A stretch of 46,589 nucleotides of DNA from Balneolaceae bacterium (GTDB lineage Bacteria > Bacteroidota > Rhodothermia > Balneolales > Balneolaceae), in NCBI GenBank assembly GCA_020832415.1, contig JAFIES010000094.1, positions 1 through 46,589 of the forward strand. The letters run 5' to 3'. The translations under genes were made by a program, and so were the position numbers. Each line of letters begins with the position of its first letter. Position 1 is the first letter of the stretch. Below, piece by piece: positions 30,160 through 31,456 of the stretch. The notes beneath the pieces are model-generated. The model was not told the DNA's origin and ran no database searches. It saw only the letters and a program-made list of their open reading frames with translations.

Positions 30160-30310
30160 TACAAAAAAAGTATCAGTAAAAGTGTTTTAGTAAGAGTTTA
30201 GCTCTCCTGTGGATGTGACTGGTTACGAAGTTTGTACAAAAGATGCAATTTGTAGTCACAGATACAGATTTGATGATCTATATAGAACTCTGAGGCTAAA
30301 TCGCACCAAT

Positions 30311-30379
30311 CGTTCCGAGGGAACGACGTTTTTTGATGGGTCACGGTATGTTACCGACCAGGTCTTCCTCACGGAAGAC
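30311..30379 (+). repeat. Hairpin cluster 1 (three stems)
   Basis: Three tandem hairpins: CGTTCC-GAG-GGAACG (30311-30325); GGT/CGGTA pairing with TACCG/ACC (30338-30358, one bulge); and GTCTTCC-TCAC-GGAAGAC (30362-30379). The order (GTTCC stem, GGT-ACC stem, TTCC stem) is the same as in the two 77-bp repeats further on, although the sequence between them differs. Confidence 0.7.
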
Positions 30380-30486
30380 AGATTTTTGCCATAAGCTTGT
30401 AAGTAATTGTTATGATTGTTCGTCCAGTCGGAAAAGTACTATAAAATTTAAGTTTGGGAGATCAAAGCTGCATAAACTCAACAAAG

Positions 30487-30563
30487 TGTTCCTATAAGAA
30501 TATTTGGTAGGCAGCCTAAAGAAGCAAATACACTCTTTAGTTTCGTTAGGAACGTTTGGTGTT
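30487..30563 (+). repeat. 77-bp direct repeat, copy 1 (decayed)
   Basis: A close match to 30733-30809 over its full 77 bp, with about 10 substitutions. The central hairpin is intact as TAGGC-A-GCCTA (30508-30518). The outer stems survive through G-T pairs. The other copy has TAGGT-A-ACCTA, a double change that keeps the pairing. Confidence 0.85.
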
Positions 30564-30732
30564 TGCACTCTAAAAAACCTCCGATGGAGCAAAGTTGAAA
30601 AACTCCATGTAATGATCAGCCAGGAACTTCAAGCCATAAACTTTCACTCAACAATATTTTTGTAAGGAAATCAGGATAATTGGTTCATATATATAGATGT
30701 GGAGTTTACAGAAAAGGAAAAACTCCGAACTA

Positions 30733-30809
30733 TGTTCCTATAGGAACATTTGGTAGGTAACCTAAAAAAGCAAATACACTCTCTCGTTCCGTTAGGAACG
30801 TTTGGTGTT
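30733..30809 (+). repeat. 77-bp direct repeat, copy 2 (intact palindromes)
   Basis: Holds three intact palindromes: TGTTCCTATAGGAACA (30733-30748), TAGGT-A-ACCTA (30754-30764) and CGTTCC-GTTA-GGAACG (30785-30800). It ends 28 bp before the transposase start and is the likely left end of the element. Confidence 0.85.
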
Positions 30810-30837: not shown

Positions 30838-31299
30838 ATGCCTAATACATATACACAAATTCATATCCAGTTTATTTTTGCTGTAAAATACCGAATGGCT
30901 TTGATAGACCCGGAGTGGAAAGAATCATTGCATCAATATGTAACCGGAATATTTCAGCAAAACAATCATAAAATGCTGCAAATAAACAGTGTTCCAGACC
31001 ATATTCACATTTTGGTTGGTTTTCGGCCAAACCAATCTATTTCACAAGTGATTCAAAATGTTAAAACCGAAAGCAGTAAATGGATCATTCAGAATCAGCT
31101 TTGTAAAAGAAAATTTGCCTGGCAAACCGGTTTTGGTGCTTTTTCTTATTCAAAAAGTCACATACCAAATGTAATCAGATATATAAAAAACCAGGATAAA
31201 CATCATAAATCGAATTCTTTTTTGGATGAATACAAATTGCTGTTAAAAAAGTTTGAGGTAGATTATGATGATCGTTATATCTTCAGGCATCCTGAATGA
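30838..31299 (+). CDS. tnpA: IS200/IS605-family Y1 (HUH) transposase TnpA
   Basis: A 153-residue single-strand transposase that cuts and joins DNA at hairpin-flanked sites. The HUH motif is PDHIHILVGF (His55 and His57) and the catalytic tyrosine is Tyr115 in RYIKNQDKHHK. The family's QTGFGAFSYSKS stretch (about 96-106) is present. All catalytic residues are intact. It closely resembles a Bacteroidota clade of stand-alone IS200-like transposases with the N-x-Y-x-Q-I-x-I-Q-x-x-F-A-V-K opening. Close hairpin arrays upstream also recall REP-associated tyrosine transposases (RAYTs), so either label is possible. The gene is likely active or recently so. Confidence 0.92.
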   Translation: MPNTYTQIHIQFIFAVKYRMALIDPEWKESLHQYVTGIFQQNNHKMLQINSVPDHIHILVGFRPNQSISQVIQNVKTESSKWIIQNQLCKRKFAWQTGFGAFSYSKSHIPNVIRYIKNQDKHHKSNSFLDEYKLLLKKFEVDYDDRYIFRHPE

Positions 31300-31456
31300 A
31301 AACCAATTATCTTTCTGAGATCAATGAGATAAATTCTATTTTAACATCCATTGTTAAAACAACTTCTGAATCCTTGCAAAAAAGTGTTGGGTCTTGATCT
31401 TAAAAAATTCAACACTCAAAATTTGACATTCAACATTTCCAATCCAATTACTATCC

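Follow-up and report, generated by a model that had tools for sequence, protein, structure and literature searches.

The three hairpin clusters that precede a Y1 transposase gene in the window (the whole 46,589-nucleotide stretch of Balneolaceae DNA analysed here) are probably REP/REPIN-like mobile units of the adjacent HUH/Y1 transposase, acting through the mechanism proposed below. Sequence comparison establishes the anatomy of the units, their position on both sides of homologous genes, the lineage specificity of their stems, their dispersal, one duplication of an entire module and a promoter motif in common with competence genes. In the open-access literature, no description was found of REP-like partners of this enzyme's subclass (TnpA subclass 1.2), nor of a competence link.

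The clusters lie where a sequence-only reading of the window had placed them, and they are one element: a two-hairpin unit in which a first hairpin (HP-A) is followed, 7-9 nt downstream, by a GGTAG/GGTAAC tag, then by a spacer and a second hairpin (HP-B, Table 1). Clusters 2 and 3 are indeed direct repeats, 90% identical over 77 bp without gaps; the first cluster, which had been counted as a further copy, is the same unit on the minus strand and not a third direct one. The GTTCC/GGAAC stems are real, and the suggested three-hairpin REP type resolves into two hairpins plus a 3' tag. The middle stem of that earlier description, with its supposed compensatory change (TAGGC-A-GCCTA against TAGGT-A-ACCTA), would close a loop of 1 nt; if the loop has 3 nt instead, as it may, the "compensatory" bases fall within it. 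When 22 units are aligned, the stretch proves to be a conserved tag (GGTAA), and the bases with which it would pair show no conservation. On account of the 1-nt loop and the conserved tag, covariation in the middle stem was rejected as evidence. The outer stem of cluster 2, said to be kept solely by G-T pairs, does contain a G/T pair, but it has a C/A mismatch too and is decayed. Folded as single-stranded DNA, clusters 3 and 1 are better than all 200 of their shuffles (z -3.9 and -3.6), and cluster 2 reaches z -2.5 with a differing best fold. Genus-wide, the HP-A stem carries two-sided changes at three of its six pairs: one is T-A in 11 units and C-G in 7, another is G-C in 10, C-G in 2, A-T in 2 and T-A in 1, and the last is T-A in 10 and C-G in 7. 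For this count the units were anchored on the tag, separately from alignment A1, whose RNAalifold structure covers HP-A only partly owing to the misalignment of 3-nt and 4-nt loops. Occurrence at this site alone, or stems free of covariation, had been named as counter-evidence; the first is seen in this genome, whereas copies in congeners number up to 23 and carry two-sided stem changes. An Rfam search of the clusters gave no family match above chance.

Table 1. Positions and characteristics of the features described in the text (window coordinates).
Feature	Position	Strand	Details
Unit 1, inverted	30305..30379	-	HP-A GTCTTCC-gtga-GGAAGAC (30362-30379); HP-B TCGTTCC-ctc-GGAACGA (30310-30326); tag (minus strand) CTGGTCGGTAAC; spacer with optional middle hairpin
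Unit 2, direct	30487..30563	+	HP-A decayed, with C/A mismatch; tag GGTAGGCAGC
Promoter-like site	30661..30689	+	TGTAAGG-N16-TTCATA; 20 exact sites in the genome (reversed pattern: 1 and 0)
Unit 3, direct, intact	30732..30809	+	HP-A ATGTTCC-tata-GGAACAT (30732-30749); HP-B CGTTCC-gtta-GGAACG (30785-30800); TTTGGTG
Unit 3 tag	30749-30761	+	TTTGGTAGGTAAC
Y1 (HUH) transposase gene	30838..31299	+	153 aa; PF01797, 96 bits; NF033573, 73.5 bits (cut-off 55)
Remnant of four-helix-bundle protein gene	31308..31382	+	C-terminal 25 codons; 88% identity over residues 94-118, E 2e-10

By its motifs (DHIH, WQ and YIKNQDKHH), the window protein is a TnpA of subclass 1.2 (DHxH, WQ, YxxxQxxHH). The criteria for this subclass are YxxxQxxHH, [DN]HxH, WQ, a length of about 148 aa and occurrence in Bacteroidetes or Cyanobacteria (PMC6006769), and its members were described as low-copy genes that as a rule have no IS200-type terminal structures, and as having no REPs (Quentin et al., 2018, PMC6006769). 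The window protein scores above the cut-off of the IS200/IS605 model NF033573. Against the model of REP-associated tyrosine transposases (NF047646) it scores 30.8 bits, below the cut-off of 80, and it does not qualify as a RAYT or TnpA_REP (class 2). An alignment of 46 relatives shows no variation at D54, H55, H57, Y115, Q119 or H123. The structural model of the protein (pLDDT 92) matches ISDra2 and IS608 TnpA with DNA (Foldseek E 1e-8) and also the E. coli REP transposase 4er8, so that both the HUH/Y1 catalytic residues and the fold of IS200/IS605 enzymes are found.

Hairpins accompany this type of gene across the Bacteroidota. A protein scan and a phylum-wide search, the latter with a homologue in 123 of 392 genomes, provided 171 distinct Bacteroidota loci; the strict subclass 1.2 Y motif is present at 161 of them. 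A plasmid search for more subclass 1.2 members returned two Bacteroidota records only. The screen for hairpins (stem of at least 5 bp, 300-bp flanks, dinucleotide-shuffle control) gives the 171 loci an average of 2.43 per 300 bp on the upstream side and 2.32 on the downstream side; the corresponding values are 0.28-0.29 for shuffles, 0.45-0.49 for distal flanks and 0.21 for the gene itself. At least one hairpin occurs in 88% of the upstream and 90% of the downstream flanks, and at least two in 70% and 69%. Both flanks have a 5-nt stem core in common at 102 of 138 loci (mean 22.2 and maximum 36 in 1000 permutations). On the protein tree, stem type changes 22 times, against a mean of 53.4 and a minimum of 46 in 300 shuffles. 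Stem type is specific to the gene lineage; since the screen demands pairing, this phylum-wide diversity is only indirectly a sign of covariation. GTAG stands 7-9 nt 3' of 61 upstream hairpins and, as reverse complement, of 49 downstream ones, with about 1.4-1.7 expected per position, and a recognisable tag is absent at 75 of the 171 loci. GT[AG]G placed as in canonical REPs, 0-2 nt 5' of the foot of the hairpin, was found at 1 of 445 upstream and 7 of 350 downstream hairpins. The published absence of hairpins and REPs, which is a description of subclass 1.2 and no part of its protein definition, does not hold for the sampled Bacteroidota. The REP search of 2018 looked for GT[AG]G 0-2 nt 5' of the stem (PMC6006769); a tag 7-9 nt on the 3' side lies outside this rule, which may explain why the association was overlooked. 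In a Flavobacteriaceae MAG (L040), tandem one-hairpin units (tcccgtaggga...tttgggtag) stand directly before a Y1 gene.

The clusters had been read either as a structured end or as a dispersed passenger of the transposase, and both descriptions fit. Homologous genes are flanked on both sides by inverted units with a locus-specific stem. In one congener (G005), the whole hairpin-gene-hairpin module is duplicated: contig 21 contains two hairpin-promoter-gene-hairpin copies of 870 bp, 96.4% identical and 187 kb apart, which end near their outermost hairpins and have unrelated flanks. This indicates that the whole module can move, although the duplication could have arisen by homologous recombination instead of transposition. 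Elsewhere in the genus, solo units and inverted pairs are scattered. A covariance model built from 22 units, whose seed sequences match by construction, detects 66 units in 10 of the 28 congeneric genomes searched, only 18 of them at 1.8 kb or less from a homologous Y1 gene. Neighbouring units no more than 400 bp apart form 24 pairs; 16 of these are divergent, with a separation that is mostly 40-59 bp, and REPIN-like inverted pairs are frequent. The own genome gives exactly three matches, all in the window, among them unit 1 (30304-30378, minus strand), which had been part of the seed as well. DNA and pattern searches of this genome for dispersed copies found none; the unit occurs there only at this locus, but reaches up to 23 copies in congeners. 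The genome with 23 units (G021) has no Y1 homologue above 50% identity, and its orphan repeats (L083, L086, L088) are either relics or users of another Y1 protein.

A promoter-like site, TGTAAGG-N16-TTCATA, precedes the window gene. It has 10-34 matches in each of four congeners and none in three genomes of other genera, and is thus genus-specific among the genomes searched. If up to one mismatch is allowed, the site is found at 18 of the 28 Y1 genes in the genus and in none of 560 shuffles; if up to two are allowed, at 20 genes and in five shuffles. The first genes behind it in the own genome are recA, comEA, comEC, yifB/comM, recQ and an integron integrase, together with three Y1 genes and four-helix-bundle genes. 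In congeners they are comF, comEC, comEA, radC, recA, comM, GxxExxY and further transposase genes. comEA, comEC, comF and comM are genes of DNA uptake or transformation. On gene content alone, this looks like a competence-type regulon, the element being common to DNA-uptake genes, and the promoter would control Y1 expression. Promoter regions of its non-Y1 members carry 0.33 hairpins per 300 bp (n=15). The GxxExxY (PDDEXK_3) and four-helix-bundle (23S rRNA IVP-like) genes behind the site may be competence-linked (L226-L275, L335-L352). Two transposases of the other Y1 class, L259, which passes the REP-associated model, and L347, with a Y..NP motif, also stand behind a competence-type promoter.

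The window belongs to a 3.94-Mb draft genome whose nearest relatives are Balneolaceae MAGs (L037, L038). Gene order is a polysaccharide-export (flippase-like) gene, the three hairpin clusters, the transposase gene and recN; no tnpB adjoins the Y1 gene, and the right-hand hairpin unit is absent. The four-helix-bundle gene, of which a 25-codon remnant is left here, is intact at the flippase-recN locus of four congeners (G007, G008, G011 and G023), behind the same kind of promoter, the promoter itself not being seen in the interval shown for G011. The units and the Y1 gene have therefore replaced most of this resident gene. The interval between the flippase gene and recN acts like an exchange site, in most cases following a competence-type promoter (window 31308-31382; L314, L321, L324, L326, L319), and contains, depending on the congener, the four-helix-bundle gene, a GxxExxY gene, a Y1 module or nothing. 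In G005, it has the promoter and an inverted unit pair, the gene being absent; in G015, the arrangement is pair-gene-pair.

Other origins of the hairpins have to be weighed against these data. Cluster 1 has, on its plus strand, stems followed by T runs, but the clusters are almost certainly not intrinsic terminators or other generic intergenic palindromes: hairpin density is 2.2 per 300 bp at the clusters versus 0.46 in other intergenic DNA of the window, unrelated genes are without such a density, and neither the sharing of stems between flanks, nor a fixed tag, nor dispersed copies would be expected. The hairpins could also be RNA elements of the transposase 5' leader, serving as an attenuator or sequestering the ribosome-binding site, as in IS200; unit 3 does lie between promoter and start codon in the window, and action at the RNA level has been proposed for many REP hairpins (PMC3733652). 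Such a position is seen at only 4 of 20 genus loci, however. At the remaining 16, the hairpins are upstream of the promoter, which argues against a general RNA-leader role, and inverted copies also follow the gene, with solo copies standing far from it. Leader control was rejected as the general or main role by this position relative to the promoter, and it is very unlikely to account for the units. The ends of IS200/IS605 elements are single subterminal hairpins, unlike the inverted two-hairpin units found here, so that the units are unlikely to be ordinary left and right ends of such an element, even if the protein passes the model of that family and the module of G005 is duplicated with its hairpins. 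There are more solo units and inverted pairs than copies of the gene, and lineage-specific stems and a low gene copy number are as in REPtrons. IS-like behaviour may nevertheless coexist with REP-like spread.

The promoter motif has a rival reading of its own, as the mark of an SOS (LexA) or other DNA-damage regulon and not of competence. The com genes behind it serve DNA uptake or transformation, and its fixed spacing resembles that of a -35/-10 promoter. recA, recQ and radC belong to the SOS response of some bacteria (PMC8565304), but the LexA motif of the Balneolaeota, TTACACATATTTTWTACATA (PMC7739468), is unlike TGTAAGG-N16-TTCATA, and identity with a LexA/SOS motif was rejected on this published consensus. 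A damage regulon as a whole is rather doubtful.

In the preferred reading, the clusters are REP/REPIN-like mobile units of the transposase; as a rule, such units form inverted pairs that flank the gene, with the tag 7-9 nt 3' of HP-A. The transposase most likely binds the hairpins in single-stranded DNA, where the tag would be recognised as a guide or cleavage site and the catalytic tyrosine would cut and rejoin single strands, as the known biochemistry of IS608, ISDra2 and E. coli TnpA_REP suggests. In this way the enzyme would move single units or pairs and, at times, the entire hairpin-gene-hairpin module. Because most Y1 genes of the genus lie behind the promoter common to competence genes, the enzyme is probably made during single-stranded DNA uptake, when single strands are abundant, and Y1 expression would go alongside competence. 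A further step can be proposed only tentatively, with somewhat more doubt than trust: that this is a hairpin-moving HUH system tied to natural transformation, which acts on the strands delivered by uptake, such that uptake triggers REP-like spread. Under the same promoter stands an integron integrase, an enzyme that also recombines folded single strands, and the transposase and its units would act alongside it.

Subclass 1.2, so far described without recognisable DNA partners, thereby gains candidate partner sequences and, with them, testable biochemistry. This REP-like system has a different tag geometry and is built, within the Y1 family, on the IS200 side, which bears on the origin of REP systems from insertion sequences. 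Were the competence link true, single-strand transposition would be tied to natural transformation.

Among known systems, IS200/IS605 elements (IS608, ISDra2) have the same catalytic fold and small-hairpin ends; the present system departs from them in its two-hairpin ends of inverted orientation, its numerous solo units and its few gene copies, and no tnpB lies next to the window gene. TIRYT elements also consist of a tyrosine transposase flanked by inverted repeats that occur alone as well (Di Nocera et al., 2013, PMC3733652), but the protein subclass is different and no GTAG tag of this geometry is described for them. As in REPINs and BIMEs (Bertels and Rainey, 2011, PMC3116915), an inverted pair of hairpin units forms a non-autonomous repeat; here, however, each half is itself a two-hairpin unit and copy number is low (1-23 per genome). 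REPtrons, which are RAYT or TnpA_REP genes with REP elements (PMC6006769, PMC3733652), likewise combine an HUH/Y1 gene flanked by lineage-specific hairpins with dispersed hairpins, a GTAG tag and inverted pairs. In contrast to REPtrons, the protein is of class 1 (subclass 1.2, YxxxQxxHH) and below the REP-transposase cut-off, the tag is found 7-9 nt beyond the hairpin on its 3' side rather than 0-2 nt 5' of it, the unit has two hairpins, one of which carries the tag, and the module can be duplicated whole. A hairpin type of its own flanking the gene, dispersal and inverted pairs are all found, as in REPtron/REPIN systems. The system works like a REPtron/REPIN, though with an enzyme other than a RAYT and with elements other than canonical REPs.
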